Assembly (NCBI GenBank): GCA_944474755.1
Contig: OX104119.1
Coordinates: 41,689,927 to 41,753,926, forward strand
From: Limnoperna fortunei
Taxonomy: Eukaryota; Mollusca; Bivalvia; Mytilida; Modiolidae
DNA: 64,000 nucleotides
Direction: 5' to 3'
Part shown: piece by piece, positions 19,152-63,086 of the stretch
How positions within the stretch are numbered: the stretch's first letter is position 1
How the letters are laid out: each line of letters begins with the position of its first letter
Program-made: the position numbers and the translations under genes
The notes under the pieces: model-generated
Seen by the model: the letters and a program-made list of their open reading frames with translations, nothing else
What the model was told of the DNA's origin: nothing
Database searches by the model: none

Positions 19152-19461
19152 TTACTCTAGCTCTAAATAATCATGGACATCCCTCCTAGTATTCGTATCA
19201 ACCGTAATACTCGGTGGTGATACTGTTTCATCATCTGTTATATGTTCAGAAGCATCATATTGTGAGTAAGTTTCCTCGGAGCATTTGTTATCATAAGCGT
19301 GATAAGCCACTTCATCTACAGTATAATAATCTGATTCCGGTTCCAAATATCCATCGTCATTTGTGTTTGTAGATGGTACTATAAATTCCATTGGAAACTG
19401 CTCATAATGTGTTTCTTCATTCTCTGGACTAACAAATGCAAAGTAATATTTGTGACTCATG
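19152..19461 (-). CDS. last exon of LRR receptor gene 2: cytoplasmic tail
   Basis: The minus-strand exon begins after an acceptor (caaattcag) at 19,461 and runs to a TAA at 19,152-19,154. It encodes about 102 residues, strongly acidic and rich in Ser, Thr and Tyr. Tyrosines sit in signalling-like contexts: GYLEPESDYYTV, EVAYHAYD and a C-terminal DYLELE. SDYYTV fits the loose ITIM pattern S-x-Y-x-x-V, so phosphorylation and SH2 binding are plausible but inferred. The exon starts with the third base of a split codon, exactly what the 34-nt exon at 23,073-23,106 supplies. Together they place this tail behind the transmembrane exon. No TIR or kinase domain is present. Confidence 0.82.
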
Positions 19462-22855: not shown

Positions 22856-22897
22856 CGCCACTGATGAGTCTTGATTAGACGAAACGCGCGTCTGGCG
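22856..22897 (+). ncRNA. type I hammerhead ribozyme, intact by sequence
   Basis: Stem I arms CGCCA and TGGCG pair over 5 bp. The core CTGATGA (22,861-22,867), stem II GTC/GAC with loop TTGATTA, GAAA at 22,881-22,884, CGCGCG and the triplet GTC are all canonical. Predicted cleavage follows 22,892. It differs from the minus-strand ribozyme at 21,648 mainly in one loop base and the outer stem. Confidence 0.85.
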
Positions 22898-23072: not shown

Positions 23073-23106
23073 CTGTTCTCTTCATACACATTCTTTCTGC
23101 AACAGC
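23073..23106 (-). CDS. 34-nt juxtamembrane exon of LRR receptor gene 2
   Basis: Minus-strand micro-exon with acceptor 'cttaatag' and donor 'gtaaac' following AACAG. It takes phase 1 from the transmembrane exon and leaves phase 2 for the tail exon, the only combination that joins the two in frame. It encodes GCCRKNVYEENS. The two cysteines directly after the basic stop-transfer sequence are a likely palmitoylation site (inference), and the tyrosine adds to the tail's tyrosine set. Its small size makes it easy to miss in automatic annotation. The non-consensus donor lowers confidence slightly, but the phase fit is strong support. Confidence 0.72.
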
Positions 23107-23567
23107 CTATTAAGTCTAAATAATGATATTATTTATTAATAGCATTACTTTCAAAACAAAGTTAACTCCAATGTAAGTAAGCCAACACTGTGTGTAAATT
23201 AAGAACTAATATACGTCACCATAGATACATAGATAGTATTTAATCATAAAATTATCTCTCATATATGCAAAAAGTCATTACTTTCATTACTTTTGTGTAC
23301 GACAACAACATGTACATCAATTTCAATAAGTCCGAGCTTGTTTGTTGAAATTATATGCTTTGGAATGTATATTACAGAGTGTTTGGGTTGAACTCAGAAA
23401 TATTACATCTTTCGTGTAATAGAACAAATAATTTTTTTTTTAAATTCCTACGTTTCAGTTAATATTTAAGTAGATGCAGTAATTGCGTGATTATTTATAC
23501 ATTAATGTCATGTGAAAACAGTTTTCTCCCTTTTGTGCAGTTAAGCCCATATTGCTAGTTAAAATAC

Positions 23568-23663
23568 CTTTTCGTCTTGTATATACAATGACAAATATTG
23601 CTATTATAAGCAACGATATCGGTACATAAAAGAATACTTCGTAGCTAGTATTTGCTGTAGAAA
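23568..23663 (-). CDS. transmembrane exon of LRR receptor gene 2
   Basis: 96-nt minus-strand exon with acceptor 'tacttttag' and donor 'gtattt'. It reads VSTANTSYEVFFYV and continues into PISLLIIAIFVIVY followed by TRRK, a single hydrophobic helix of about 20 residues with a basic stop-transfer end. It enters and leaves in phase 1, fitting the stalk exon before it and the 34-nt exon after it. Reading through the donor instead would add about 25 codons before a TAA, so intron retention would give a tail-less receptor. Confidence 0.82.
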
Positions 23664-24214: not shown

Positions 24215-24253
24215 CTGTTCTGTCTGGAAATGTTGGACTTGTTGTAGTGTAGG
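24215..24253 (-). CDS. 39-nt stalk exon of LRR receptor gene 2
   Basis: Minus-strand exon between acceptor 'gatttttcag' and a gtaagt donor. It is phase 1 on both sides and encodes PYTTTSPTFPDRT, a short Thr/Ser/Pro stretch between the LRR C-cap and the membrane that would carry O-glycans. Being symmetric, it could be skipped or duplicated without breaking the frame. Confidence 0.8.
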
Positions 24254-24800: not shown

Positions 24801-24958
24801 GCTGACATTTCGACATGATTTCCATAGGTAAATTTAAAATTAGAGTTCCATTGTAATTGCAATTCGCTCCCGTTAAGCTCTTCTTGTATTTTGTTGACAA
24901 CCAACTGTAGAATGACCAAATGCGGCAATCGCATTTGAGATTGTTTCCGTCTACACCC
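24801..24958 (-). CDS. LRR C-terminal cap exon of receptor gene 2
   Basis: 158-nt minus-strand exon with acceptor 'acactgcag' and a gtaagt donor. It reads GVDGNNLKCDCRIWSFYSWL, then TGANCNYNG and ends in IMSKCQ. This is the LRR C-cap pattern: N-x-L-x-C-D-C, the aromatic/Trp-Leu segment, and two further cysteines at the usual spacing. It enters in phase 2 from the last LRR exon and leaves in phase 1. The entry makes a textbook last-repeat-to-cap junction (DLQYV then GVDGNNLKCDC). Confidence 0.92.
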
Positions 24959-25886: not shown

Positions 25887-25949
25887 ACATATTGAAGATC
25901 ATCCATATTAGAAACTTCAATAACGCTCAGTTTGTTATTATCAAGCATT
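25887..25949 (-). CDS. terminal LRR exon of receptor gene 2 (63 nt)
   Basis: Minus-strand exon between a polypyrimidine-rich acceptor (ttttttcag) and donor gtaggt, phase 2 on both sides. It encodes MLDNNKLSVIEVSNMDDLQYV, one residue set shorter than the 24-residue repeats of the array. This is normal for the repeat that leads into the C-cap. It joins the exon at 31,026-31,097 upstream and the C-cap exon downstream in frame. Confidence 0.85.
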
Positions 25950-28799: not shown

Positions 28800-28965
28800 T
28801 GAATGTTCTGTTATGGCATAAATGCAACATCTTAATCATTTGGATTTTAAATATTGTTTAGGTTTAAACGCTACTGATGAGCGTTGATAAGACGAAACGC
28901 GCGTCTGGCGTAGTAAATTCTATTAACCTTGGTATCTGTGATAACATTTTATTGTTAGTCAAAGG
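28800..28965 (+). mobile_element. truncated hammerhead repeat copy
   Basis: It shares the lead-in 'aacatcttaatcatttggat' and the follow-on 'gtagtaaatt...aaccttggtatct' with the element at 22.1-22.9 kb, around the ribozyme at 28,868-28,911. Only the region around the ribozyme survives. Confidence 0.6.
28868..28911 (+). ncRNA. hammerhead ribozyme with weakened stem II
   Basis: Stem I arms ACGCTA and TGGCGT pair over 6 bp with one G-U. The core CTGATGA, GAAA, CGCGCG and cleavage triplet GTC are intact. Stem II has changed from GTC/GAC to GCG/GAC, leaving only the closing pair, so activity is doubtful. Confidence 0.65.
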
Positions 28966-31025: not shown

Positions 31026-31097
31026 AAGGATGTGAGATTTTCAAGACCAGTTAAAATGCCGCTTTCAATTGAAGTCAGTAGGTTAGAACTCAAATCT
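31026..31097 (-). CDS. LRR exon of receptor gene 2 (72 nt, phase 2)
   Basis: Minus-strand exon with acceptor 'attttgcag' and a gtaagt donor, exactly 72 nt, phase 2 on both sides. It encodes one 24-residue LRR that begins DLSSNLLTSIESGIL and ends ENLTSL. It links in frame to the terminal LRR exon at 25,887-25,949. Upstream the next intact LRR exons are those of the array from 50,956 on, so either a 20-kb intron full of transposons separates them or this is a separate gene whose first exons are lost. Confidence 0.88.
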
Positions 31098-35819: not shown

Positions 35820-37327
35820 ATGGCGTCGCCATTATTTTCCAGTGTAGTAGCTAATGTTAAGTCTACTCAGTTGTTGTCGGTCGTTGCCTTAGGCAATAGT
35901 TAGATTTCTACCAAGGACAATAGGAACCTTAAGTTAATCAAGAGGACAATGCCGTCCAAGGTAGGTGTAAAATCCGTGCCCCAGGCTAATGTTAGTAATC
36001 TTGTAAATTCGCATGGAGAAAGTCCAAGATTAAAAAGTTCTGCTTTGTCAATCGGAAATAATGTAGAGTTTGCACGAAATAGTGTAGTATCTGAACAGAA
36101 CGATGACATGCCGTCTTTTGGACATAAACCGTTCGGTTTTGTGTCAAGGAAACATGGAGTAAAGTTAACCAACAGACAGTCATATTTCTATTGAGCAATA
36201 CGTTGTTGCTATTGCTACTATTGAAAAGCCTGAAAATATAGTGGCTGCCTCTCTTGTAGTGTTCCTATCCAACCTTGAAGATGTAGAAATCTTGTGTTCT
36301 AATGGCCTTAGTATAGGTGATGAATTTATTAATGTTCAATGTTTAGTTAAAATCCCCAAAAAAGTAACTTTGTCCAACTGCCCTCCTGTTATTTCCGAAT
36401 GACTTACTGGAAGATTAATTGATGCGTTATGGCCGCATCATTTCTGACATTAAGCCTATTGCACTAGGCATCAAAATGCCGGCTCTTAAACATGTAAAGT
36501 CCTTCAGAAGACAAGTTTCCCTTATTCTCCACCCCTGTGTAGTGTTACCAGAATATTTTGATATGTTCTACCAAAGACAAAACTACAGAATATTTCTTAA
36601 TGGTAATGTACTTTGTTTTAAATGTAAGCATACTTGACATATTAAGAATAGATGTCCAGAGAATAAATCTACAGCCGATAACAACAAGTCAGAATCAATT
36701 ACAGATATCCCATTTACGGCTGAACCAGCTCCGCTAACTGGGACAGCGGGACAGTCTGTTACCTTAGACTCTGGAGTCCATGACTCTGCATCTAACACCC
36801 CAGCCAATGGTGCTACAATGGCAAAGTCTGGGAAATTTACTGTTGCTAATATCATTGTTGGTCTGCACACCCCTGTTGAAAATCTGGAGAATGATCAACT
36901 GCCAGCTAAATCTGCAGTTAAGAGGAAAGCAGCAGACAATATTGACTCTATTATTACTATTAAATCCCCTACAACGGCTAAAATTGCAGATGTATTACCC
37001 CCACCATCCCCTTGTGTTCTTAACACCAATGAAGACGAAGATATAGACATTGAGTCTATATCCTCTGATTTGTCAGAACAAAACCTATCACAAATAGTAG
37101 TAGATACTGAGCACAAATTATCAACTGAGGAGCTGGATAGACTTCTTGTGGAACCTAAAAGTAATAAAAAGCCAGTTGAAAAATGCCTAGAGTATACCAC
37201 CAACCTCAGGCAACTAGGACAAGATTTTATTGACCTTCGACGCAACCCTGAGTTCTCTTCCCAGCTGAAAGCCCGTCTAAATAAATTGATAAAGAAATCA
37301 AAAACCTACCTAAAAACTTATGCTTAA
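35820..37327 (+). pseudogene. LINE ORF1 (gag-like RNA-binding protein), broken
   Basis: It starts at 35,820 in a good context (gaagatggcg) with MASPLFSSVVANVK. The middle part reads LMRYGRIISDIKPIALG and then LKHVKSFRRQVSLIL, matching the Tx1-group ORF1 block (RYG.l...IK.I.LG...LKHV...RRQV). A zinc knuckle follows at about 36,619-36,655, C-x2-C-x4-H-x4-C (CFKCKHT stop HIKNRC), in which the glycine codon before the histidine has become TGA. The last 169 codons (36,818-37,327) are open and end LKTYA. Frame changes occur near 36,180-36,190 and 36,400. In life it would bind the element's RNA. Confidence 0.75.
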
Positions 37328-37410
37328 AGATTAAATATATCTAAGTCAAAGGGTATTGTCCACTTATTTATGCATTTTTGTTCTGTATTTTTATTACAAT
37401 TACAATTGTA

Positions 37411-40400
37411 ATGTCCGGTTTTTCGATAGTTTCCCTGAACACTCAAGGTTGTCGTGACTCTTTTAAAAGATATTTTATATTAGATTCTTTGAAATCTAGA
37501 TTAAATGTGGACATTTTTCGTCAAGATACACATACCATTCCTTCTGCTGAAGGTATATAGAAAATGATATGGATAGGAGAAGTAGTGTTCTCTTATCTCT
37601 CAAATATTTCTGCGGATTGGCGATATGTTTTTCAAATAATTTAGAATATACTATTCTATATCATAAAGTTATATTACCCGGTCGCATTTTACATGCTATT
37701 ATCAAATTACAGGAGCAAAATGTTTATTTGTTGAATGTCTATTCCCCCACCTGTCCCAAAGAAAAACTTTTTGAAATGTTTAATACACCATTTGAATCAA
37801 CTTGATCCTTCCTATCCAATATTTCTTGGAGGTGATTTTAATTGTACTGCTTATCCTTCCATAGATAGGACAGCAAATGTTGAACCCCACCCCCACTCTT
37901 GTAATGAATTAAAAATATTGTTAAGCGTTTCAAATTTATTGATACGTTTTGTAATATTCATCCCTACGATAAAATATATTCTTGGTCGAGAAATGACGGT
38001 ATCGCCGCAAGACTTGATCGAATTTACATCTCCAAACATTAGAGTCAGTTCATCAGATCATTAGAAATAAAAGAATGTACATATTCTGATCACGATTTAG
38101 TTCATGTTTACTTTAGAGAAATTCAAGGTGAACACAAGAGTGCATACTGGTATTTAAATAGATCACTTTAAGTTGATAAATCGTATATTGATATGATTAA
38201 TAACTATTAGATTTCTTGGCGATTACAGAAATCTGAGTTGAAGTGTATTCAAGATCGTGGAAAATACAAAATAAAGGAACTTTCGCAAGAATTTTCCATT
38301 AAAAAGAATTATGATTTTAAACGTAAATTTAATAGTTTGCAGTTGCGATATTCAATTATTAAAATCAAATTCTGCCGCAAACCCTGATATCAATACCATT
38401 TTAATTGAGAAACAACATCAGATGTCTCGTATTCAGGCCCATGGTGCTAAGGTACGTTCAAGGTTCAAATCTGTAAATGATGCAGATAAACCTACGAAAT
38501 ATTTCTTTGACCTTGAAAAGAAACGTGGTACAAAGAAATTATTATCCCATTTAACATTGCCAGATGGCAGTATAACTGATTCAGATCACGAAATAAGAAC
38601 CCTTGCCACAAATGTTTACTCTGACTAAGTGAAATCCAAAAAGAAACATTAGATAGTGTTATTAGTTACGATGAATTGTCCTCTGCCGTTGATGTATAAT
38701 AATAAATCCCCTGTTATTGACCGGTTGCCTTGTAAATTTTATAAAACCTTTTGGAACGTCGTGGGAAAAGATATGCACGAAGTTATTGTTACTTCTATTG
38801 AAGAAAACAGACTTCCACTTTCGTGCAGAAGAGCCGTTCTGACGATGATTCTGAAAGTAGTTTGTTGAAAAACTGGAGACCAGTGTCTCTTCTCAGTCTT
38901 CTCTCTTGCGACTATAAAATATTTACTAGAGCTTTCTCGCTTAGACTCCGTACCTTTCTAACCAATATATTAAATATCGATCAAAGTTATTCTGTTCCCG
39001 CCGTACATATACTGTGAAATACTTTTTATTCTTGGGGTATCAATTTTAGTGGTTTTCGTGGAGGCCTCAGACCACGAAATTAAAATCCAATGAAGAATAT
39101 AACTTCATTATCAGATCGGAACTTAGGAACAACGATCTGAAAATGTCCAAGATTGTTCATTTATTTGTAAATGTAATTTAGGGTTTTGTGGTTCGATCCA
39201 TACTTCATTTTTAGCTCAATATCCATCTGAAATGATTATGTAAGCAGTTTTATGTTCGAATTGTGTTTTTATTAAATGTTGGTATCATTTAATTGTAAAT
39301 AGTTCGAAGAAACATCGACTTCAGGTCAAGGTGTGGAGATATAAGGTGTTCATTTTCGCTGTGAAAAGTAACAAACTGGTATCGAATTTATTAGTGTGGT
39401 TGCTCATTTGAACCTAAATAAAATAATATAATAAAATATTTAAAAGATAAGCTTTATTTTATCTTCATTAGTACATTTCAATGACACATCATATTTCAAA
39501 CGGGTGTTGTGCTTACATGAAACCGATCATGGCACAAATGACAGTTAATAATACCTTTGTAAGAGTAGTTTATTGTTACTCAACACCTGGAGTGACAAAA
39601 TGACCGTCGGCTAGAAATGCTTCTTTTGATAACAATTAGAGAATTAAAAAGACTCAAAGTATTGTTAATTGCAATTAATCGATTTATATATTACCGAGTT
39701 TATAATTAGCTATTGATTTCTGTCTTGTTAATGCTAATATTAGGATGCAAGTAATTAAATTTCTTTTTTATTAAAAGTATGATGTATTTTTATTAAAAAA
39801 AAACCACAATCTTGACTAATGAACACTGTAGTGTACAGTCGTAGCCATGTGCGTCAACAAACAGCATGTTATGCAACTGTTTTGTCTTCTTTATATGTTG
39901 ATATTTATTATCAAGAGTGCAAAGGATTTTGTGTTCATTTATTTTCAGTTTTTTGCATTTTCGCAAACGTCAGTCAACGAATTTAAGAACCCACGAACAT
40001 ATAAAATTTCATCAAATTACGAAATTTGATGCCCACGAAGAAAAGAACTTCCACAGTAAGTGATAATATTGGTTTTATTTCTACGTGTTAAGCTAATCAG
40101 GAAAATATCCCCCTTGCTATTGTTTCCCTTGACCAGGCTTTTGATCGTGTTCATCATGGTTATTTGATGAAGACATTAGAAGCCTTCGGTTTTGGCGATT
40201 ACTTTATATCCTTTATAAAAACTATTTATACAGATGTACATACTTTACTTAAAATTAATCAATCGTTATCGCCTCCCTTTCAATTTAAGAGAGGTATACG
40301 ACAAGGATGTCCCTTGTCTTGTAAATTATATGTTATTTGCCTTGATCCTCTTTTGCACAAACTAAGGTCAAAAGACGGCTTATCAGCCTTTGAACTTCCA

Positions 40401-41350
40401 TTATCTGATGGTAAGAAAAGTTGTTTATCTGCATATGCATATGATTTGGATACTCTTTGAACGCAGGACTCTCATTTTCAAAGGTTGTCTTTCTGGTTAG
40501 ATATATATAAATTAATTTACAAAAGACTGAAGGTTTGTGGGTGGGAAGTTGGAAAAATAGAAATGATTGTCCACTTGATCTCAAGTGGAATAATAAAGGC
40601 CTTAAAGTTTTGGGCACTTTTGTTGGAAACAATAGGGATTTTTATAAACAAAACTGAGAAGGGATGGAGGAGGATATTACTGTCAAACTTGTTGGGTGGA
40701 AACCATTTGCTTGTGGTTTGTCACTTATAGGACGAACTCTTGTAATTATTTTACAATCCGCGTCAAAATTGTGGCATCGATTAAAATCCGTGGCCGTGCC
40801 CGACGAAATTATTAATGCCATTCAAAATAAATTTATAGATTTTCTATGGCAAGGAAAACATTGTGTTTCCAAAGAAATGTTGTACCTTCCGTATGTACTG
40901 GTGGACAGGGTTTGGTTCATATTTTGTCTTGAATTCGTGATTTTCTAATTCAATTTATGTATCGATTTTTTACATTAATGAATGGTGAAGATTTTCACCC
41001 TTGTCAATATTTGGTAAATATGTTTTTGTCTACTGTTTCTAACTTGAATTATGATATACAATTGTTACTACTTGATGGGGATTTTCAGTATCCTAACATC
41101 TCAAGCTTTTATCAAGATTTAATAAAAGCCTGGAAATATTTTGAATCATCTAGAATGAAAAAAGATGATACCTCAGTTGCAGACGTTTAAGAAGAACCTT
41201 TGTTCTTTAATCCTTTATTAGTTAACCCTAAAACCGAACAACCTTTTTATTTTGAAAATTTTGTAATTACGGGTATAACAAAGATTAAAGATCTTTTTGA
41301 TACTAGTCTAATAAGAAAATGTACTGCAGAAGATCTTGATGGCATAATAA
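37411..41350 (+). pseudogene. LINE ORF2 (endonuclease and reverse transcriptase), broken
   Basis: The endonuclease begins MSGFSIVSLNTQGCRD. FRQDTHT stands where the catalytic Glu box (QETH) is expected, so E is replaced by D. GGDFNCTAYPSIDR lies near 37,830-37,870 and YSDHDLVHVY near 38,081-38,110. In the RT, LSCDYKIFTRAFSLRL lies before the insertion, and SLDQAFDRVHH (motif A, two residues shorter than usual), RGIRQGCPLS (motif B) and SAYAYDL (motif C) after it. Motif C, normally YADD, has Tyr in place of the first catalytic Asp (40,434-40,445), which abolishes activity. C-terminal fragments follow to about 41,600 (LIGRTLVIILQSASKLW, IDFLWQGK). Confidence 0.78.
39012..40056. mobile_element. 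TA-flanked DNA element inside the LINE RT
   Basis: The ends are imperfect inverted repeats, CTGTGAAATACTTTTTATTC at the left and, inverted, CTGTGGAAGTTCTTTTCTTC at the right, continuing with 'gtgg/gtggtatcaatttt'-like sequence. TA dinucleotides flank both sides (39,010-39,011 and 40,057-40,058). Removing the element and one TA restores the RT reading frame across the join (VHI to SDNIGFI), which fixes the borders. It has no transposase ORF, so it is non-autonomous. It inserted after the LINE. Confidence 0.85.
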
Positions 41351-41821
41351 GCATTCGCGCCGAACGCTGTATATAACAACATCTTGTTTTACTATGGTCG
41401 TCTTTTCCTCCGGAGTGGAGTAAATTGATAAATAGTTTTTTAGATAATAATATTGATATTGGTGTAGCATACCGACATTAGAATCGGATGAAACATATGT
41501 TGCATTCTTTGCAACTGCATTTTATTCCAATGTCTTTAGTTCAGATGTACACTGCATTTATAAAATTGTTTGTCAAAAATCTATCATACGACAGTTTTAG
41601 TTTTCAGGACATTTTGTAATTTCAAAGTCAGTTGATGCAGATGATAATTTTAATATAAAATAAAAGCAACTGAAGAATTCCAATTTCTCTTACTGTCAAT
41701 TGTACATGTATAAAACATAGGTACATGTATATCACTTTGAAGTGCAACAGATGATAGATGTTGAAAATACCATTCTTTAAGGTACTGTCATCCATCAGTG
41801 TAAAAGTCATGAAATTGACAT

Positions 41822-43390
41822 CTCAATATACTGATAATTTTTTTCCTTTCAACTGTTTTAACTGTTTTGTGAGTATTTGTGCGTAGTACATGCAGCACTT
41901 TGGACCAGAACAGAAAAGCCAGCTATGATCATCTTCTTCCCTGTTTAAACAATTGAAAACATGAGAAATAAGAGCAGTCACTTGGAAGAAAATAAGAACT
42001 TACATTTCGTATAATAGTCTGTAAAGTAGAAATTCTTTATGTGTATCAAGTTTATTCCCTATTATTCAGTCAACTGCATCTCTTTATTGTTCAATAATTT
42101 TAATTCAAAGTTACAAATTGATTAGCACCTTTAATCATAGCCAATGAACCAAGTTTACAAGCTTTCCCTATGCTGTTATAAATCAAGGTACATGTATTTA
42201 TCTAAACAATGGTCACATTCTAGATGTAAACCATATTAAGTATTGTGAATAAATATTAAAATGCAATTTTTTTTAAAACTGCATGTCACTGCACTTTGAG
42301 CAAAGCCTTTTCAATTCTTGATTATTAATATTACATTTTAAATACTTTCACACAGAATATAAGAATGCATCTATGAGGTGAGGTTACTTTTAAATAACTA
42401 TCCACTTTATGAAGATCTATACAAGTTGAAACTTTTATTTACGAGATACTTAGTACATTTTACTTTACATTACCACATTCCACTTACAAAGTTGGCATCA
42501 TGTTAAACTCATCTAATTTGAACAGAAACTTGGAACTTTTGAAAATTGCTTCTCCACACAGGGTCACCAACTTGACTCGGCGATGCACAAATGATATCTA
42601 TAAATCCGTCTTTGATATTGTGATATGTTCAGCCATCTGAAATGAAATTGTTGGTCATGTTAATTTATACATGTATTAAGTGACTTTAATAACTACAAAA
42701 CTATTTTATTTGTAGTATTGATTTTCACATACCTTTTTCGGACAAATAATTTTTAAAAATCTTTGCCAGTATTTAGAAAAAAAAATCCACAACTTAAATT
42801 TTTTGTGACAGTCAACCAAGCGATGAATGACGATTAAAACTGGAGCAACAGGATGTAGGATGAATAATTAATGTCTACCAGTAGTTTTATTGATGGTTTT
42901 TGTCAAATGTTTAATATTAATTCCGCCTATCATCTCCTAACCACGTTAGTAGATGTTTATACTAGTACTATTTTACTGATACTATGTTGAATGTTTATCA
43001 TATGTAATTCTCCTCCTCTTTTTTCTTGTTAAAAAACTCGTGCCTTATTGTGAAAAAAGTCCATATTTTCGTATATAATTTACGTACTGACCTTTCTATG
43101 CTGCCGTTAAGTTTTGAACATCTGTTTACTTGATTCTCTATAAGCAATATCAAAAGCAGACCAACATCTCTCAATTCAATTAAATAGCGCGATGACGATT
43201 TGTTCATCTTTCTCTTCATTGGAATGTAAATGATACAAATTGAAGTGGAAAGAATTTCCCAAACGCTTTTGGAAGAACGGCAACGCAATCCTTTTCTTTC
43301 TCTAAACAATCCAACATAATTCTTTGAGTTCTCAGGTACTAAAATAGTTGTAAAACTTTTCAGACCGCAAAACGCATCGGATATCGCCAT
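41822..43390 (-). other. candidate spliced minus-strand gene of unknown function
   Basis: An ATG at 43,390 in strong context (gtcaaaatggcg) opens a frame reading MAISDAFCGLKSFTTILV. A consensus donor (AAAG|gtcagt) lies at 43,092, phase 2. An acceptor (atttcatttcag) at 42,637 leads into WLNISQYQRRIYRYHLCIAE and a stop, giving a complete protein of about 123 residues. Further exon-like pieces follow: a donor gtaagt near 42,489 and an acceptor (gtttaaacag) at 41,941 before a frame reading EEDDHSWLFCSGPKCCMYY with a stop at 41,822. The exact model is uncertain. It lies between the LINE's RT end and its presumed 3' UTR, on the other strand, and could be a host gene captured there, a non-coding transcript or chance. 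Confidence 0.3.
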
Positions 43391-43559
43391 TTTGACAGTA
43401 AAGCCTAGTGTGATATACAAACCAGTATTTGATTGGTCGAATCACTCAACTGGAACTGAAATTTGATTGGAAGATCAAAATTAAAAATTTTGACCCCTGT
43501 AATGGGATGTCGTTAGGTCTTACAACGCAGCGACCAATAACAAAAAGGGGGGAGCATGA

Positions 43560-43920
43560 AAGATTTAATTTTAATTAGATTGGTACCAGTCCATGTTGAC
43601 TTTGATCATTCGGACAAAGTCATTTATAGGTTTCTCTAGGTTAATGTTAAGTATGTAAAATATTTAATGTTAAAGTTTAAACTGGCTTGTATCAGTTTAA
43701 ACTGACTTTACTCACAAGGACAAAGTCTTTTGGTTTATAAACTTTCTATCGCATTGTCATTGTGTATTTGGCTTTAATGATATCATTATATCTATTTTCA
43801 AAATTGTTACTTAAGCTTGTCAAAATAATGTATTTGTTAGGTTTATATGTTATGTATAATGAATTTTTGATGCCTTGTTAAACTGTGATATAATGTTTTA
43901 ATCAATAAAGGGTATTGAAA
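43560..43920 (+). other. probable LINE 3' UTR
   Basis: Non-coding stretch ending in 'ttttaatcaataaagggtat', with a poly(A)-signal-like AATAAA just before a run of TTC repeats. Its position after the Tx1-like LINE and its 3'-UTR character suggest it is that element's end. Direct homology cannot be shown from one copy. Confidence 0.35.
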
Positions 43921-43977
43921 ATTCAATTCTTCTTCTTCTTCTCCTTTTTCGTCTTATTATTGTTATTATTATTTTTA

Positions 43978-44077
43978 TTAAGGTCTTTCCCACTTCCAGT
44001 GGAAAGACCTTATTGTATTTCTTCTGATTATTAAGGTCTTTCCCACTTTCATTGGAAAGACCTTATTGTATTTCTTC
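43978..44077. repeat. two hairpin repeats AAGGTCTTTCC...GGAAAGACCTT
   Basis: AAGGTCTTTCCCACTTCCAG followed by TGGAAAGACCTT forms an almost perfect hairpin. It is repeated once, after 'attgtatttcttctgattatt'. The same half-palindrome (gggaaagacct) closes the 1-kb units at about 46,281 and 47,338. Confidence 0.8.
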
Positions 44078-44079
44078 TG

Positions 44080-44117
<38 letters not shown>
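44078..44117. repeat. (ATT)n microsatellite
   Basis: About 40 bases of uninterrupted ATT repeats that open the first 1-kb repeat unit. Shorter (ATT)n runs open the next ones at 46,325 and 47,380. Confidence 0.9.
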
Positions 44118-44119
<2 letters not shown>

Positions 44120-44205
44120 TTTCTTCTTGTTCCGCCCCTTTTCGAAAGCCCATCAATTTGAGAGTTCGCGACATATCATTTCGAAACTTTGGATTATAGA
44201 CCTGG

Positions 44206-44309
44206 GTGCCGTTTCATAAAGCGATCGCTAATTAACGTGCTCGTTATCCCATGCAATTTAAATGGGATAACGTGCACGTAAAGCTAACGATCGCTTTATG
44301 AAACGGCAC
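44206..44309. mobile_element. 104-bp palindromic MITE, copy 2
   Basis: Same palindrome as 32,535-32,638. It is flanked on both sides by CCTGG. The homologous unit B shows the unoccupied site (gacctggac near 46,420), which proves insertion and a 5-bp target duplication. Confidence 0.92.
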
Positions 44310-44545
44310 CCTGGACTTTATTCTCTATTCGAGACTGCGTTTTGCAAGTCGAATACTTTTTACTGACAGAGTTATCTGCCCAAACACCGAAAACCTTGTT
44401 ATCAGAACAACTCAGAAACTATAAAATTTAGAGAAAAACTGAAAAGTGAGAAATGTTAAGGAACTTTTGAGACAACTTTGTGCCATAATTTGGCCAAAAA
44501 ATTTTGTCGAGCGAAGGCGGGCGGTATACCTTGAATTTTTCATGG

Positions 44546-45716
44546 TCTAAAACTAAACTTTATGAAGAACTTGGTTGGGAGCCTCTTTATAAGAGAAGAG
44601 AAAAACATAAACTTATATTATTATATAAGATTATGCACAATATTTACATGATATTGTACAACCATTTACAGTCAATATTCATAACTATAATCTGAGAAAT
44701 GCTATTTCAGAGAGTAATTTTAGAATTCCTTTTTGTAATTCTGTATCTTATGATAAGAGTTTTATTCCCAACACTTTTAAACTTTGGAATAATCTTCCAG
44801 AGTCAATTAAAACAAGTCCCTCCATTGAAATATTTAAGAAAAGGTTAAAATCTGATGTAATGGCTTGTCCTGAATATTTCAATGAAGGAAATAGAAAAGA
44901 AAATATAATACTCTGTCAGATGCGAAATGATGCCAGTAATCTGAATAAACACTTACTATGTCATCATTTATCTGATAGTTCTGCCTGTCCTCGTTGTAAC
45001 CATACAAATGAAGATCCCAGCCATTTTTTCATGTATTGCCCCTCTTATAGTATTCAGAGACAAAATCTTCTGAATGCATTTGCAACTTTAAATATTGACT
45101 TTAACATTCAAAATATTTTATATGGCAGTCCAATTTGTAATAATGAACAAAATAAAACTTTGGTCCTGTCTGTGCATGATTTCATAAAGGGAAGTAAAAG
45201 ATTTATATAATTAATTGGTTAATTAATTAATTAATAGTAATACAGGTATATAAATGAATAATAATTAATATTATTAATGCATTTATCAATCGAGAGCACT
45301 AATGATAATTATGATGACTAAAATATTATGTGTTATTTCTCTATTTTGTTTGTATATATGTTTGTTCTGTGATCTATCATCTATATTTCCTTCCTATTTT
45401 TTTTTCTCATGTACTCGAAAAGCCACAGATCTCATATTCCATATCCTTGCTTTGCATCTATCTACATTTGGTTATGATATATACATGTAAATTATTAGAT
45501 AATTCTTCTTTATTTTCCTTATTAATAATTACAAAGAAACATTATAATAACTGAGATTTTTGGCTTACAATAGAATTTGAGTTGTCTTTCTTTGACTTAA
45601 TTATGACATGTCTGTGCCATTGTTTGATGTTACCATGGAGAGGATATATATAGGTTTGGTCCTGCTATCCAATCCAATTCATGTATTTCATGAATAAAAT
45701 ATGTTTAAATCAAATC
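44546..45716 (+). mobile_element. 5'-truncated non-LTR retrotransposon (3' end) with 12-bp target duplication
   Basis: It is flanked by AATTTTTCATGG at 44,534-44,545 and 45,717-45,728; the empty site can be inferred from unit B. Inside are the C-terminal pieces of a non-LTR ORF2: LGWEPLYKRREKHKLILLYK, then a frame with NTFKLWNNLPESIK. At 44,860-45,210 comes a C-terminal domain with CPRCNHTNEDPSHFFMYCP, the C-x2-C-x8-H-x4-C finger usual at the end of such ORF2 proteins, ending in FIKGSKRFI. A 3' UTR follows and ends in an 'aataaaatatg...aaatc' tail. The frame is mostly open, so it is younger than the Tx1-like LINE. Confidence 0.85.
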
Positions 45717-50955: not shown

Positions 50956-51027
50956 AGTGTATGCAAATTCTGGAGTCCGTTAAAAGTATTACTGGGAATA
51001 AAAGTACTTTGGTTGTGAGACAAAGAC
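50956..51027 (-). CDS. array LRR exon 1 (72 nt)
   Basis: Donor gtaagt, acceptor 'aaatgcatag' (TAG instead of the CAG of its sisters). Phase 2 on both sides. It encodes SLSHNQSTFIPSNTFNGLQN and ends LHTL. Relative to its sisters it has Ser-Thr-Phe where the others have Ile-Thr-Ser, so the hydrophobic position after Asn-x is lost and the repeat may be less stable. Confidence 0.82.
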
Positions 51028-52323
51028 CTATGCATTTACAGTTGCAATATTAACTGTCTCTCATTGTAGTGACGTAAAGTTTCTGTCACATTCGCTCATA
51101 AGCTTTTATAGACATGTTATAATAAAGCGTACTAAATATTATTCGTGCGATTCATTACTAATCCAACTTGTTAAAACTGTCGTCGCAAAATAGTTTAATT
51201 ATCAAAGCTCAACTGCGCACAATAGTCACAGAGATAAGTCTGAAAAACAAAGCTAGAGTTACACGTCCCTAAAACAAACTACACAAGGAAAAACAACTTC
51301 GGGATACAAATATAATAAACCGCAGAAAAACTCAAAACTCGTCTACTTTGATTGTAAAAAGTCTGATGTATCAGAAGAAATGAAGAATTCTTTCTGTTTG
51401 GAAAATGAAAAAGTTTACAAAACATAAGAATAGCATGATGATATGTTCCTCTGCTGGTGAACAAGTACAGTTGTCACAGCTGGATTCAGATGCAATTATT
51501 ATTAAGTGACATTACAATAGTCTGAAATAACTGCCATGAAATTTGGAAATGTTTTAAATAATAACTTGTCTCTATGCACATCCTTCAAATGGATTTAGTC
51601 TGATTTGATATATTATTATGAAATTTGAAGATAATAGCTCATAGACATCTTATTATTTGGCATATAAAACTCTTTGGGTTTTGGCGCTGCTGATGAGTCT
51701 AGACACATGTCAGAAGTGAAATATGTGTAGCACTGTTATTTCTGTGGATATTTTGAGGGACACCAATGGACCGACACCCCTTACGGTTGGATGTTAACCC
51801 GAGAGAAGTCAATAGCTTAGGAATAACAACTACTTGCCAGAGAGATAATCAAAGATTCTGTCATTTATGAGTATTGGTATTTCTCTAGAAATTTCTAGTG
51901 CAACCACTGGGCCAACATCTACCCCGTTTCCCTGTTAATCCCAGAGGTATCACTAGCCTGTTAATAACAACTGCGTGCTATACTGATTATCATTGATTCA
52001 GCCATTTACAAGTTAATATAAGTTAATATATAAAATTATAGCCTAGAAATTTCGCCAACGTATCGACGTGTACTTGGTCTTCACTTGGTCTTCCTTGAAT
52101 ACAAGATTCCAACGTTTTATTTCTCACGTAAATTCACCTACTTATAACGTTCACATAAAATTGTTATTCTGTATCTGTTATTTTCATTAATTCTTTGCAA
52201 TTAAATTTCTCTGTGTATACATCTTTTTGTGTTATTGTAGAATTATTTATACTAATTCGTACAAAATCTAAATTAACTACGAGCTTAACTAAAATAAATA
52301 ATAGTAAGTACAGTAACACTTAC

Positions 52324-52395
52324 AGTGTTTGCAAATTCTGGAGTCCGTTAAAAGTACTACTGTTAATGGAAGTAATTTGGTTGTCCGACAACGTC
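52324..52395 (-). CDS. array LRR exon 2 (72 nt)
   Basis: Acceptor 'cgcattacag', donor gtaagt, phase 2 on both sides. It encodes TLSDNQITSINSSTFNGLQN and ends LQTL, a complete 24-residue LRR in the L-x-x-N-x-I/L pattern. Confidence 0.9.
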
Positions 52396-53489
52396 CTGTA
52401 ATGCGAAAAAAAAACAATTATATTGTGTACATTTCTCCCATGTTTAGTATTCTTTCTTATCGTACAATATGAGACAGATATATTCCTCTGCATTTACAAT
52501 CATTTGAGATATATAGTCTCCCATTGTAGAGCGTAAGGTTCTGTCACTTTTGCTTTACAAGTGTCTTATATACGTGCTATAACAAAGCGTACGCAAAGTT
52601 CTTATTGTGATTTTTTACTGATCCAGTTGTTAAAACTATCTTCGCAAGCTTGTTTCACTATCAAACTTTAACAGCGCACAATAGCCAGACAGATAAGTAT
52701 GCGAAAACATAGATTTGAATTGTCATGTCAACTGTAAAACTGCAATGTCTAAACGTCTGTTTAGGAATACAAATATAATAAACCACACACAAAAACATTA
52801 AAATCTTCGACGTTGATTGTGAAAGGCCTTTCGTATCAGCAGGAATAAAAGAAGTTGTTCTTTATGGAAATTTAGAAAAATATAGCAAACATAAGAATAA
52901 CATACTTATATGTTCTTCTGCTGGTGAATTGAAAGTCCCCAAATGGAATACCAGTACAGTAATAACAACTCGGTTCAGACATAATTATCATTAAGTGATA
53001 TTACAATAGTCTGAAGTAACTGTGCTAGAATTATGAAATTGTTTCAAATAATAATGTGTCTCCATGCACATGTCTTTAATTGAATTAGTCGGATTTTACA
53101 TAATATTTTTAAATTTGAAGATAATAGCTCTTAGCGTAATTATTAGTTATATAGACTCTTTTTGGGTTTTGGCGCTGTTGATGAGCTTAGACGAATTCCA
53201 GAATTGAGATTTATGTAGCATTGGTATTTCTGTAGACATTTTGAGTAAAACCAACGGGCTGAACACCACTCCAAGATGGCTGTTAATCCAAGAGGTATCA
53301 CTAGCATAATAATAACAACTGTTTACAAGATCGATAATAATTGATTCAGTTCTTTATAAGTCAATATATGCATTTACAGACCTGAAATATCGAGAATATC
53401 TCAACGTATTATCGGTTTTACTTGCATACAAATTCTTAACATTTCTTAGCTGAACTAATATAAATAATAGTATGTATGTTAACACTTAC

Positions 53490-53561
53490 AGTGTATGCAA
53501 ATTCTGGAGTCCGTTAAAAGTATTACTGGGAATAGAAGTAATTTTGTTGTAAGACAAAGAC
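53490..53561 (-). CDS. array LRR exon 3 (72 nt)
   Basis: Acceptor 'cccattacag', donor gtaagt, phase 2 on both sides. It encodes SLSYNKITSIPSNTFNGLQN and ends LHTL, a consensus-like LRR. The sequence is identical to exon 4. Confidence 0.92.
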
Positions 53562-54698
53562 CTGTAATGGGACAAAATCATACCGTTAATGTACAACGTT
53601 AATGTTGGTATAATGGTTTATTATACAGAGAAATGAAATGAAATATTGTATTGTATACATTTCCCATGCTAAGTGTTCTTTCACATCGTACAAGATGAGA
53701 AGCATTTATTCCTCTGCATTCACAATGTTGCAGAATTAATTGTCTCCAATTGTAGTGACGTAAAGTTTCTGTCACTTTCGCTTCATCAGGTAATTTAGAC
53801 ATGTTATAATAAAGCGTTCTAAAATTTATTCGTGCGATTCATTACTGTTCTAAGTTGTTAAAGCTATCATCGCAAAATAAAGTTTCATTATCAAAGTTCA
53901 ATTGCGCACAATGGTCACAGAGACAAGTCTGAGAAAACAAAGATTTGAATTGTCATGTCAACTGTAAAACTGCAATGTCTAAACGTCTGTTTAGGAATAC
54001 AAATATAATAAACCACACACAAAAACATTAAAATCTTCGACGTTGATTGTGAAAGGCCTTTCGTATCAGCAGGAATAAAAGAAGTTGTTCTTTATGGAAA
54101 TTTAGAAAAATATAGCAAACATAAGAATAACATACTTATATGTTCTTCTGCTGGTGAATTGAAAGTCCCCAAATGGAATACCAGTACAGTAATCACAACT
54201 CGGTTCAGACATAATTATCATTAAGTGATATTACAATAGTCTGAAGTAACTGTGCTAGAATTATGTGTCTCCATGCACATGTCTTTAATTGAATTAGTCG
54301 GATTTTACATAATATTTTTAAATTTGAAGATAATAGCTCTTAGCGTAATTATTAGTTATATAGACTCTTTTTGGGTTTTGGCGCTGTTGATGAGCTTAGA
54401 CGAATTCCAGAATTGAGATTTATGTAGCATTGGTATTTCTGTAGACATTTTGAGTAAAACCAACGGGCTGAACACCACTCCAAGATGGCTGTTAATCCAA
54501 GAGGTATCACTAGCATAATAATAACAACTGTTTACAAGATCGATAATAATTGATTCAGTTCTTTATAAGTCAATATATGCATTTACAGACCTGAAATATC
54601 GAGAATATCTCAACGTATTATCGGTTTTACTTGCATACAAATTCTTAACATTTCTTAGCTGAACTAATATAAATAATAGTATGTATGTTAACACTTAC

Positions 54699-54770
54699 AG
54701 TGTATGCAAATTCTGGAGTCCGTTAAAAGTATTACTGGGAATAGAAGTAATTTTGTTGTAAGACAAAGAC
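54699..54770 (-). CDS. array LRR exon 4 (72 nt), duplicate of exon 3
   Basis: Same sequence, splice sites and phase as the exon at 53,490-53,561, created by the recent 1.2-kb duplication. Including both in one transcript adds 24 residues without breaking the frame. Confidence 0.9.
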
Positions 54771-55299
54771 CTGTAATGGGACAAAATCATACCGTTAATG
54801 TACAACGTTAATGTTGGTATAATGGTTTATTATACAGAGAAATGAAATGAAATATTGTATTGTATACATTTCCCATGCTAAGTGTTCTTTCACATCGTAC
54901 AAGATGAGAAGCATTTATTCCTCTGCATTCACAATGTTGCAGAATTAATTGTCTCCAATTGTAGTGACGTAAAGTTTCTGTCACTTTCGCTTCATCAGGT
55001 AATTTAGACATGTTATAATAAAGCGTTCTAAAATTTATTCGTGCGATTCATTACTGTTCTAAGTTGTTAAAGCTATCATCGCAAAATAGTTTCATTATCA
55101 AAGTTCAATTGCGCACAATGGTCACAGAGACAAGTCTGAGAAAACAAAGAGTTTGGTTTGAATAGTCAACCGAGAAACCGCAATGTCCAAACTGCCCATG
55201 ATACCAAAGCTTATGTAGTACAGAGATCAACAGAGACTTTGAATCATTTTGTATCCAGTTCAGCCCTTTAAATAATACATTTATCGACAAATGCTTGCC

Positions 55300-59030
<3,731 letters not shown>

Positions 59031-60447
59031 ATACAGCATTCCAATACTAAATGGTCTCCCATTGTAGAGACTTAAAATAACTTTCGCTTCCGCTTATTAA
59101 GGTACTATAGACAAGTTATAACAAATCGTACACAGAAATTCTTCGTGTGATTCATTGCTAATCTAGTTGTTAAAACTATCGTCGCAAACTTGTTTTAGTA
59201 TCATAGTTCAACTGCGCACAAATGTTAGAGAAATAACTCTGCAACAATGAAGTTTGATTTAAATGGTCAACTGCGAAACCTCAATGTCTAAACGGTCCAT
59301 GATACCAAAGCTTCTGTTACATGTTGCTAAATAAAATCTACACAAGAAACAACAATTTGGGGACGCCCTTCTATTTGGATTGTGAAAGCCTGATGATATT
59401 TTTCTCTGCCGGTGAACTGTACATCCCCAAGGGGAACACCTGAAAATTATGTGATATTTCAATAGTCTAAAATTATTGTCATGAAATTTTGGAAACGTTT
59501 CAAATGGTGTTTTTTTCTTTTGGATTTCATATAATATATTGGAATTTGTAGATAACAGCTATTAACAATTATTTGGGCATATACACTCTTTGGGATGTCG
59601 GCACAGCTGGTGAGCCTAGACGCATGTCAGAAATAAAATTTTTCTAGCTTTAGTATTTAAGTGGATATCTCGATTAAAATCACTGGGCCAACACCCCTCC
59701 GGGTTGACTGTTAATCACAGAGGGATGACCAGCTTAGGAATAATAACTACGTACCAGATCGATAATTATTGATTAAGCCATCTATAAGGTAATATGTAGT
59801 TACAGCCCTGTAATTTCCATAATTTATCGAAGTGTACTTGGTTTTCCTTGTATACCAGATCCCAACATTTTATTTTTCACGTACATGCACCTACTTATAA
59901 CTTTCACATTAAATGTTTATTCAGTTGATAATATTATCAATTAATTTCCCCTGTGTGTACATCTAATGGTTTTATTGCATTATTAATTAAATTAAGAATT
60001 GAATGCTTTGTTTGAAGTCTCATTTGAAAGCGTTGACCAAGGTACATTCAATGATCGCTCGTGATTAAAATGTGTTTCGGTCAACGCTTTCATACGTCAA
60101 TAAAACTTCAAAATAATGCATTCAGCTTTTATATACACATTTTATTTCATTTAAAAAAATGCCTGGGTCCCGATTTACATTGTGCACTAGATATGTTTGT
60201 TGATTTAAATCATGCATCGTTGTTTCTTTACTGTGGACCTCGTCAAGGAGGCGCGTGCTCTTTAAGGCTACCGGTTTCATTGAAAAATGCAAGTAATGAA
60301 TCTACGTCATCTGTAAAGGAATGAACCAAAAGAAATCTAGGATATCGATGAAAGACATACGTAAAGTAAATAATATTAATTTGCACACGATTACAATTAA
60401 TTTTAAGCTGAACAAATATCAATATGATTATATATTTTAACACTCAC

Positions 60448-60519
60448 AGTTCACGTAAATTCGTAAGACCGTCAAAAGAACCATTGTGAATAAAAGTAAT
60501 TTGGTTCACAAACAATAAC
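60448..60519 (-). CDS. array LRR exon 5 (72 nt), divergent
   Basis: Acceptor 'gttgtttcag', donor gtgagt, phase 2 on both sides. It encodes LLFVNQITFIHNGSFDGLTN and ends LREL. It is the most divergent intact exon of the array, in framework as well as in the exposed positions, so probably the oldest. Confidence 0.87.
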
Positions 60520-61124
60520 CTGAAACAACAATTCGATTAATTTATAGTTGTTCTAACATAATGGTTCATCATACAGAAAAATCAAATGACAAATATAGTG
60601 TTGTATGCATGTCCCATGTTTAGTATTCTTTCCCGTCGTACAATGTGAGAATTATAGGATAATCAATTGATCAGAGTGTAGCATTGGTATTTCTGTAGAC
60701 ATTTTGAGTAAAACCACGGGTGAACACCAATCCCAGATGGCTGTTGATCGCAGAGGTGTCACTATCATAATAACAACAACTACGTACCAGATCGATAATC
60801 ATTGATTCAGCCCGTTATGATTTAATATATGCATTTACAGCCCTGAAATATCGGGAATGTTTCGACGTATTGTTATAATTACATTGTAATCTTTTACATT
60901 GATTGTTAATTTAACAGTTTACTCTTTTATTGTAATTAATTAATTAATTAAGTGTAATAAATGATAATTAATATATAATTAAATTTTAATTTGTATTTGT
61001 CTTTTGTTGGCTAAATTTAAAGTTTATTTCTACCTGTAACATTATACTTGGTTTTAATTGCATACCACATCTTAACATTTCTTAGCTGAACTATTATAAA
61101 CTATAGCATTATGGTAACACTTAC

Positions 61125-61196
61125 AGTGTATGCAAATTCTTGAGTCCGTTAAAAGCATTACTAGGTATAGAAGTAATGTTGTTCATATACAAAAAC
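61125..61196 (-). CDS. array LRR exon 6 (72 nt)
   Basis: Acceptor 'cctttacag', donor gtaagt, phase 2 on both sides. It encodes FLYMNNITSIPSNAFNGLKN and ends LHTL. The framework matches exons 2-4 while the first residues (F, Y, M, N) differ from all of them. Confidence 0.9.
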
Positions 61197-62705
61197 CTGT
61201 AAAGGGACAAAATAATTCCGTTAATGTACAATTGTTTTGGCATAATGGTTTATTATACAGAGAAATGAAATGATAAATATTGTATTACATACATTTCTAA
61301 TGTTAAGTATTCTTTCCCATCGTACAATATGATAAACATATACTCCTCTGCATTAACACTGTTGCAGAATTAATTGTCCCCATTGTAGTGACGTAAAGTT
61401 TCTGTTACTTTCGCTTCAAAAGGTACTATAGACATGTTATAATAAAGCGTACTAAAAATTATTCGTGCGATTCATTACTGATCTAGGCTGTTAAAACCAT
61501 GGTCGCAAAATAGTTTAATTATCAAAGTTCAACTGCACTCAATAGTCACAGAGATAAGCGTAAGAAAACAAAGAGTTTGGTTTGAATTGTCAACTGCGAA
61601 ACCGCAATGTCCAAACGGCCCATGATACCAAAGCCTCAGTTACACGTCCCTAAAACAAACTACACAGGGAAAATAACTTGGGGAATACAAATATAATTAA
61701 CCACAGAATATCTTAAAACTCTTCTACTTTGATTATGAAAAGCATAATGTATCAGAAGAAATGAAAGAATTCTTTCTGTTTGGAAAATAAAAAAAAAACA
61801 AAACAGAAAAATAGCATGATGATATGTTCCTCTCTGGCAAACGATAAGTTCCCAAGGGGAACACCAGTACAGTAATTACAACTCAGTTAAGACACAATTG
61901 TTATTAACTGACATTACAATAGTCTGAAATAACTGCCCTGAAATTTTGGAAATGTTTTAAGCAATAACGTGTCTCCATGCACATGATTCAAATGGATTTG
62001 GTCTGATTTGATATATTATTTTGAAATTTGAAGATAATAGCTCTTAGACATCTAATTATTTCGCGTATAAACTCTTTGCTGATGAGTCTAGACACATGTC
62101 AGAAGTGAAATATGTGTTGCATTGTTATTTCCGTGGGTATTTTGAGGGAAACCAATGGACCGACAACCTTGACGGTTGGCTGTTAATACCAGAGGTGTCA
62201 CTAGCTTAGGAATAACAACTACGTGCCAGAGCGATGATCATAGATTCGGTAATTTATGAGTATTTGACATTTCTCGGACGTTTCTAGTGCAACCACTGGG
62301 CAAGCACTTCTCACGTCGTATAGCTGTTAATCCCGGAGGTATCACTAGCCTGGGAATAACAACAGCGTGCAATACTGATTATCATTGATTCAGCCATTTA
62401 TAAGTTAATATAAGTTAATATAGACAATTACAGCCTAGAAATTTCGAGAATGTATCGACGTGTATTTGGTTTTCCTTGAAGACACGATCCAAACTTTTAT
62501 TTATCACGTACATTCATCTACTCATAACGTTCAAATTAAATGGTTATTCGGTTGCTGTCATCTTCATTAATTCAACGCAATTAATTTCTCTAATTTCTCT
62601 GAGTATACATCTTTTTGTTTTGTTCGATAATTATTTCTACTACTTCGTACAAAAACATAATTGACGACGAGATGAAATTAAATAAATAATATATCTATGC
62701 CAACA

Positions 62706-62769
62706 CAAATTCTGGATTCCATTAAAAGTATTACTGGGAATAGAAGTAATTTGATTGGAAATCAAAGAC
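62706..62769 (-). pseudogene. decayed array LRR exon
   Basis: It reads SLISNQITSIPSNTFNGIQN in the LRR register, but the acceptor AG has mutated (cag to cat) and the last bases plus the donor are deleted (aatttgtgttggc). It cannot be spliced as its sisters are. Confidence 0.8.
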
Positions 62770-63014
62770 ATGTAAAGCGAAAAAAAAATTCCATGTTAAT
62801 GTACAATTGTTCTGGTATAATGATTTATCATACAGAGAAAAAAAATGATAAATATAGTATTTCCCATGCTAAGTATTCTTTCCCATTTTACAATATGATA
62901 AACATATATTCCTCTACATTTAAAATGTTGCAATTATTAATACTAATTCGTACAAAATCATAATTAACTTCGAGATGAACTTATATAAATGATAGTTCCT
63001 ATGCTAACACCTAC

Positions 63015-63086
63015 AGTGTATGCAAATTCTGGAGTAAGTTAAAAGTATTACTGGGAATATAAGTAATGCTGTAGGCATATACAACT
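63015..63086 (-). pseudogene. decayed array LRR exon with frame loss
   Basis: The 3' half reads ITYIPSNTFNLLQNLHTL and a donor-like gtaggt is present. The 5' half has lost frame and the acceptor position is unclear. It is probably inactive. Confidence 0.65.

Follow-up and report, generated by a model that had tools for sequence, protein, structure and literature searches.

We describe a leucine-rich repeat (LRR) receptor gene of the mussel Limnoperna fortunei, hereafter gene 1, in which the codons for the presumed binding surface of a tandem array of one-repeat exons (cassettes) have changed faster than the introns beside them. Part of this array occupies 50956-63086 of a 64,000-nt window, i.e. 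the whole stretch of DNA analysed (C9:41689927-41753926); coordinates are those of the window throughout, with negative values or values above 64,000 denoting adjoining DNA. We suggest that gene 1 is a receptor gene of ~116 kb on the minus strand, in which unequal exchange copies cassettes and selection renews the concave face, yielding germline-encoded recognition receptors. From the sequence, we assign to this reading a probability of roughly 0.72.

An array of one-repeat exons

The window (GC content 31.9%) holds six intact 72-nt exons on the minus strand between 50956 and 61196, each encoding a single LRR and symmetric in phase 2. This had been claimed in a preliminary description of the same DNA, and direct reading of splice sites and phase confirms it. 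The cassettes are built as 1 nt, 23 codons and 2 nt, bounded by an AG acceptor and a GT donor, the latter in the form of GTAAGT or GTGAGT. Beyond the window the array continues on the same strand, so that 13 intact cassettes are spread from ~88.6 kb down to 31 kb (those outside the six lie at 66126, 76396, 77553, 78535, 87535 and 88621, and at 31026), and a further one at 95029 (95.0 kb) has a dead donor. A strict scan for such exons across 204 kb (the window and 140 kb around it) found 25, against 0 in five shuffles, and a looser scan gave 28 rows, every one on the minus strand, of which three overlap at a single site.

Three scaffold classes can be distinguished, namely A (SIESG), B (SIHNGSF) and C (SIPSNTF), and their order from 5' to 3' is A(dead)-C-B, A-C-B, A-(C)(C)-C-B-C-C-C-C, A, where brackets around C mark degenerate copies. 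The recurrent A-C-B order indicates that a three-exon block was repeated and that class C was amplified afterwards. Spacings between the six cassettes of the window are 1368, 1166, 1209, 5749 and 677 bases, and the earlier statement that each occupies its own 1.2-1.5 kb unit therefore does not hold. The proposal that symmetric exons can be duplicated as units is, on the other hand, supported by the cassettes at 53490 and 54699, which are identical (leaving five distinct exon sequences among the six) and lie in units of 97.2% identity, which differ by 10 mismatches and 5 gap openings in an alignment of 1284 columns. These units reflect a fairly recent duplication; the same mismatches and gap openings argue against an assembly duplication. 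The intron 5' of the 50956 exon bears a poor resemblance to its counterparts at the other five (31-37 matching bases in 81-88 aligned), and the pyrimidine tract of this cassette is the poorest among the 13 intact ones (8/17). Between cassettes 54699 and 60448 there is a 3.8-kb stretch without array homology (55212-59048), which includes a 100-bp AT repeat and one piece of which (56833-57752) is found again at 96384-97286.

Concave-face codons and the intron clock

In LRR solenoids the x residues of the LxLxxN motif lie on the concave face, and by analogy those of gene 1 would face the ligand. Codons x5, x7 and x8 of this motif were chosen as the test set because the preliminary description had named these residues, and the introns flanking each exon served as a neutral clock, making this an intron comparison rather than a PAML or codon-model likelihood. 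In the four disjoint closest pairs of gene-1 cassettes, 17 of the 36 bases of x5/x7/x8 were changed, where the mean flank predicts 5.2 and the faster flank 7.0 (P≤1.3e-4), and the other 20 codons had 25/240 bases changed vs 34.5-46.6 expected. Parsimony on intron trees placed 16 steps in the 9 concave nucleotides of class C, or 1.78 per base, compared with 0.865 in the intron and 0.383 in the rest of the exon. The corresponding concave, intron and rest values were 1.00, 0.694 and 0.45 in class A (including 95029), and 0.78, 0.324 and 0.15 in class B. Permutation among the 15 non-scaffold x codons gave P=3/455 for x5/x7/x8 on the trees and P=7/455 by minimum residue changes, both with 95029 included. 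Across the 13 cassettes the codon for Asn9 is invariant, and that for Leu6 is only ever TTG or TTA.

Not all cassettes entered all comparisons. The degenerate copies at 62698 and 63015 were left out of every variation test; 95029, with its dead donor, was left out of the pair and codon-position tests and kept in trees and permutations; and 53490, being the same as 54699, was omitted from pair comparisons and from the residue-change permutation. The divergence cut of the pair test removed 52324/50956 (intron 0.387, concave 4/9), and 31026 (class A) and 60448 (class B) had no partner.

A second cassette family and a control gene

Genome-wide searches covered the 1.335-Gb assembly of 285 contigs. 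With one cassette plus flanking sequence as the query, a DNA search returned 33 matches, 12 at its own locus, 16 at C14:4.09-6.00 Mb, four on C15 and one on C13, and when one C14 cassette was the query, 19 of the 32 matches aligned at ≥85% over most of its length, all at C14:4.09-6.00 Mb. These nineteen represent one cassette class on one strand, at least 25 kb apart, and apparently belong to many paralogous receptor genes. Eighteen of them have an intact 72-nt exon and were used (L067 yielded none in the exon scan); a twentieth, partial match was left out and L069-L076 were not assigned to this family. At one C14 locus (L040, C14:4370669-4372970), three identical 72-nt cassettes (WLGNNKITSIGKDAF...) are repeated in tandem every 1115 bases.

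Diversity per base among the 18 C14 cassettes was 0.342 at x5/x7/x8, 0.074 in the rest of the exon, and 0.083 and 0.102 in the introns, and the trees of this family gave 2.67 concave steps per base vs 0.475 in the intron and 0.417 in the rest (permutation P=6/455). Nine disjoint C14/C15 pairs, a set which overlaps the 18-cassette family, differed at 21/81 concave, 15/540 other exonic and 119/2474 intronic bases, with L055/L059 (intron 0.434, concave 9/9) and the unpaired L056 left out. Four of the nine carried 4, 4, 4 and 7 concave changes; in the pair L051/L052, with introns 2.6% apart, 4/9 concave bases are different.

Matters were different in gene 2, which is the neighbouring gene on that strand and has the same architecture (cassettes from 433 to about -15.1 kb). 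Its concave codons were changed at 3/27 bases in disjoint pairs, vs 6.5-7.5 expected, and trees of its two classes gave concave values of 0.56 vs 1.077 for the intron, and 1.00 vs 1.198 per base. Permutation of x5/x7/x8 returned 140/455, and changes at codon positions 1+2 vs 3 numbered 9 vs 5 (P=0.69). Cassette -7511 was left out of the pair comparisons and the residue-change permutation, -2322 and -13907 were left out of all tests, the pair -4013/-13117 (intron 0.442, concave 4/9) lay beyond the divergence cut, and -15137 had no partner. As gene 2 shows no excess, neither LRR structure nor the method accounts for the excess in gene 1.

The complete gene and its relatives

Twenty exons of gene 1, joined at intact splice sites, form one open frame of 603 aa with AG/GT at each internal end (Table 1), and the cassette exons are presumably joined in this way in the RNA. 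The predicted protein would be a single-pass surface receptor with a signal peptide, an N-cap, ~13 one-exon LRRs and an LRR from a 63-nt exon, followed by a C-cap, a stalk, a transmembrane segment and a tyrosine-rich tail. We take the cap exons to be such from their LRRNT and LRRCT cysteine patterns; one membrane-like segment follows the C-cap, as judged by eye. Pattern and tblastn searches of the minus strand from 19 to 144 kb yielded a single convincing start exon and a single C-cap, a further N-cap pattern match near 129.7 kb being repeat-like and lacking a signal peptide. We reject a pseudogene array in view of the conserved scaffold and the in-frame model, despite the three dead cassettes.

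Table 1. Features of gene 1 and gene 2 in window coordinates
Feature	Position	Strand	Remarks
Intact class-C LRR exon, FLYMNNITSIPSNAFNGLKNLHT	61125-61196	-	AG/GT, phase 2
Intact class-B LRR exon, LLFVNQITFIHNGSFDGLTNLRE	60448-60519	-	AG/GT, phase 2
Intact class-C LRR exon, SLSYNKITSIPSNTFNGLQNLHT	54699-54770	-	AG/GT, phase 2
Intact class-C LRR exon, same sequence as the 54699 cassette	53490-53561	-	AG/GT, phase 2
Intact class-C LRR exon, TLSDNQITSINSSTFNGLQNLQT	52324-52395	-	AG/GT, phase 2
Class-C LRR exon, SLSHNQSTFIPSNTFNGLQNLHT	50956-51027	-	AG acceptor, weak pyrimidine tract
Degenerate class-C cassette (VVYAYS...)	63015-63086	-	acceptor lost (AC)
Degenerate class-C cassette (SLISNQ...)	62698-62769	-	acceptor AT, donor deleted
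Signal-peptide/N-cap exon, gene 1	134755-134921	-	upstream end of gene; N-cap by alignment to LGR5
Intact class-A LRR exon, DLSSNLLTSIESGILTGLENLTS	31026-31097	-	
Last LRR exon, 63 nt, MLDNNKLSVIEVSNMDDLQY	25887-25949	-	
C-cap (LRRCT-like) exon, NLKCDCRIW...C...C	24801-24958	-	cysteine pattern, not Pfam
Short Thr/Pro stalk exon	24215-24253	-	
Exon with hydrophobic, presumably transmembrane, segment, VFFYVPISLLIIAIFVIVYTRRK	23568-23663	-	read by eye
Juxtamembrane exon, DLIGCCRKNVYEEN	23073-23115	-	
Tyrosine-rich cytoplasmic tail exon, end YLELE-stop	19152-19461	-	
Signal-peptide and N-cap (LRRNT-like) exon, gene 2	3758-3924	-	
LRR cassette of 72 nt, first intact one found for gene 2, SLSSNKISVIENGALCNLPKLQY	433-504	-	

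A Pfam scan of the spliced model (E≤0.001) returned six LRR families, with one sub-threshold non-LRR match, and no match to a ROC-COR GTPase, TIR, 7TM or EGF domain, and the best matches of a PDB sequence search were TLR13, LGR5 and LGR4. Both sets of matches identify the fold, not the family. Searching with the full-length protein gave 2024 matching proteins at E≤0.001, of which the 120 listed are LRR-rich proteins of many kinds. Protein searches with the tail alone and with the part from C-cap to tail found no relative, and in the genome the tail exon had no match at E≤0.001 other than its own place.

The gene-1 start exon has 14 genome matches at E≤0.001, itself included, nine of which are on C9, and the LRR matches listed in the genome search fall on contigs C1-C15 only. 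Within the first 15 kb of one paralogue (C9:21.38 Mb) there are nine 72-nt cassettes, all dissimilar; this is probably the usual condition in the family, and gene 1 would depart from it through cassette amplification. Gene 1 shares its strand with gene 2 (from -18.4 to 3.9 kb) and with a possible gene 3, whose start exon is at about -57 kb, and together they form a cluster of N-cap/72-nt-cassette genes.

Several repeats were also noted within gene 1. A type I hammerhead ribozyme (Rfam RF00163, 40.4 bits) at 21648-21691 on the minus strand, with similar stretches at 22856-22897 and 28857-28954, sits inside a repeated element with copies at ~21.4-22.3, 28.8 and 34.0-34.6 kb. The 20-kb intron between cassettes 50956 and 31026 contains LINE-like open frames on the plus strand (36638-45210), one of which carries RGIRQGCPLS, a motif that we take to be reverse-transcriptase-like. 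A 53-bp satellite of 169 copies lies at ~104-113 kb (L013:28-8959), inside the long 5' intron; its unit had no match in the text of a golden mussel satellite paper.

Weighing of explanations

Class-C cassettes have been amplified locally, and some have decayed. Under the reading we favour, exon-intron units would be gained and lost through unequal exchange, and selection would favour new residues on the concave, ligand-facing side while keeping the scaffold, the outcome being germline-encoded recognition receptors with the tail doing the signalling. An ordinary LRR gene, whose x positions are merely free to drift over a fixed scaffold, would need no selection for change, and several facts agree with it: one LRR per 72-nt phase-2 exon is an old architecture (PMC11378527), modularity of LRR exons is documented elsewhere (PMC6642158), the C9:21.38 Mb paralogue carries cassettes of the same kind, and x17, x23 and other x positions vary as well. 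We nevertheless consider drift unlikely. It should stay at or below the intron rate, whereas x5/x7/x8 change at 1.4-5.6 times the rate of intron sites in the three gene-1 classes and the C14 family; it also fails to predict the 17 changes of the disjoint gene-1 pairs, and gene 2, with the same architecture, shows no such excess. More doubtful still is the idea that a hotspot of mutation or gene conversion in the 5' part of the exon, and not selection, made the variation, for instance through short tracts passing between cassettes. All the variable codons do fall within the exon's first 13 nt, certain concave sets are found on more than one scaffold (e.g. RLYGN on DRSS and DRGS) and unit homologies are patchy along the array. 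However, in the 18 C14 cassettes the Leu6 and Asn9 codons of that same stretch are invariant, synonymous bases included, and third positions are spared: concave changes at codon positions 1+2 vs 3 number 23 vs 1 (P=7.7e-4), or 48 vs 7 (P=4.5e-4) when pooled with gene 1, and a tract or hotspot would ignore codon structure. The invariant Leu and Asn codons and the spared third positions therefore fit selection better than a mutational hotspot. Conversion followed by selection is possible, and selection on residues respects codon positions with or without conversion supplying the variants.

Two further alternatives concern the use made of the cassettes. Dscam holds tandem arrays of similar exons in one gene, and gene 1 resembles it in this respect. 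Mutually exclusive exon use, as in Dscam (PMC13428168), applied to the class-C cassettes would give many receptors per individual; such splicing would be compatible with selection on the concave face and would add to it, and we hold it to be possible, if rather doubtful. The 13 intact cassettes are symmetric, interchangeable and equipped each with its own splice sites, and splice variants that differ in LRR content do occur in the LRR exon arrays of brown algae (PMC11378527). Yet no choice is required, as all intact cassettes used together give a plain 14-repeat solenoid. The plan of the variable lymphocyte receptors (VLRs) of lampreys, with N-cap, LRRs, C-cap and stalk, is also that of gene 1, down to the variable concave face on a constant scaffold. 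In VLR loci the flanking donor cassettes lack splice sites, and a cytidine deaminase takes part in the assembly. Agnathan VLRs are assembled somatically from incomplete germline genes (PMC13428168), whereas gene 1 has complete germline exons with AG/GT sites at every intact cassette, and a hydrophobic segment and tail; the searches from 19 to 144 kb gave just one convincing start exon and a single C-cap to serve all its cassettes. Somatic assembly of cassettes is accordingly very improbable, and the lamprey parallel drawn in the preliminary description finds no support as a mechanism, each of the 13 intact cassettes having its own splice sites in one complete, in-frame germline model.

A number of observations weigh against selection on the concave face or narrow its scope. 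Five of the nine C14/C15 pairs, with 0-4.3% intron divergence, have at most one concave change (two of the pairs are identical; L040/L045, 1/9 at 0.7%; L046/L053, 0/9 at 2.5%; L044/L047, 1/9 at 4.3%), and in gene 1 the pair 95029/66126 differs at only ~2/9 concave bases. The codon-position test is weak for gene 1 alone (25 vs 6, P=0.068). The preliminary description had proposed a constant scaffold with variable x positions in LxLxxN, which is supported by rates above those of introns and by the repetition in the C14 cluster, and had named evenly spread variation as a result that would count against it. Variation is not evenly spread, although in C14 x17 (7 steps) is as variable as x8, with x3, x23 and x20 varying too, and gene 1 also varies at x10, x13, x18, x23, x2 and x3. 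The variable set x5/x7/x8 is not exclusive, and the concave face is the main, not the sole, variable part. The numbers of pairs and steps are small, no correction was applied to intron divergences, and the test is one by introns instead of a codon model; moreover, gene conversion may cause intron divergence to underestimate age. All data come from the genomic sequence of one genome. As for the protein, the Pfam scan of the spliced model named neither N-cap nor C-cap, the signal peptide and transmembrane segment were identified by eye, and the immune role is argued by analogy.

Known systems and biological meaning

The closest known system is the LRR-ROCO exon array of brown algae (Ectocarpus and Saccharina), where tandem 72-bp phase-2 one-LRR exons are shuffled in candidate immune receptor genes, and four concave sites (14, 16, 18, 19) are reported to be under positive selection (PMC11378527, which cites Zambounis et al. 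2012). By spacing, these sites correspond to x3, x5, x7 and x8 of our cassettes, and the two systems share tandem 72-nt phase-2 one-LRR exons with concave sites faster than neutral, as measured here against introns. Unlike the ROC-COR GTPases of algae, gene 1 has a signal peptide, caps and a transmembrane segment, and belongs to an animal genome. The expanding arrays of 90-bp phase-2 LRR exons in Tetrahymena (PMC6564038) are similar in the fixed length and phase of their exons and differ in unit size (72 vs 90 bp) and in their host, a ciliate; a term search of that paper's text found no occurrence of 'positive selection'. Gonadotrophin receptors have phase-2 introns (PMC11378527), and the LRR exons of human NLR and Slit genes are modular (PMC6642158). 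LGR/glycoprotein-hormone receptors, Slit and TLRs share an LRR ectodomain with gene 1, which, unlike them, has no 7TM, TIR or EGF Pfam match. In an oyster, two LRR-surface sites of one TLR are reported to be under positive selection (PMC4346834), and a review of immune diversification gives FREPs for molluscs and VLRs for jawless fish (PMC13428168). Among the titles and abstract beginnings listed in literature searches of open-licence papers there was no animal LRR exon array of this kind, which is weak evidence of absence.

By comparison with these systems, pathogen- or self-recognition would be the likeliest reason for such selection. Presumed binding-surface codons that outpace the surrounding DNA suggest an inherited route to diversified recognition. 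A wider proposal, which we advance tentatively, is that the exchangeable cassettes across the genome (gene 1, C14 and C15) might constitute a germline repertoire generator, with cassettes swapped between and within genes, binding faces renewed, and individual sets arising through splicing or copy number; this would be a germline counterpart of the lamprey VLR system. If true, the logic of the brown-algal genes would operate in an animal, with symmetric one-LRR exons open to addition, loss and exchange, and selection directed chiefly at the codons of the binding face. The introns beside each cassette would provide a built-in neutral clock, by which diversification could be measured per exon, per individual and per species. 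The finding thus bears on how invertebrates without lymphocytes may widen their recognition, and would make that question directly testable.

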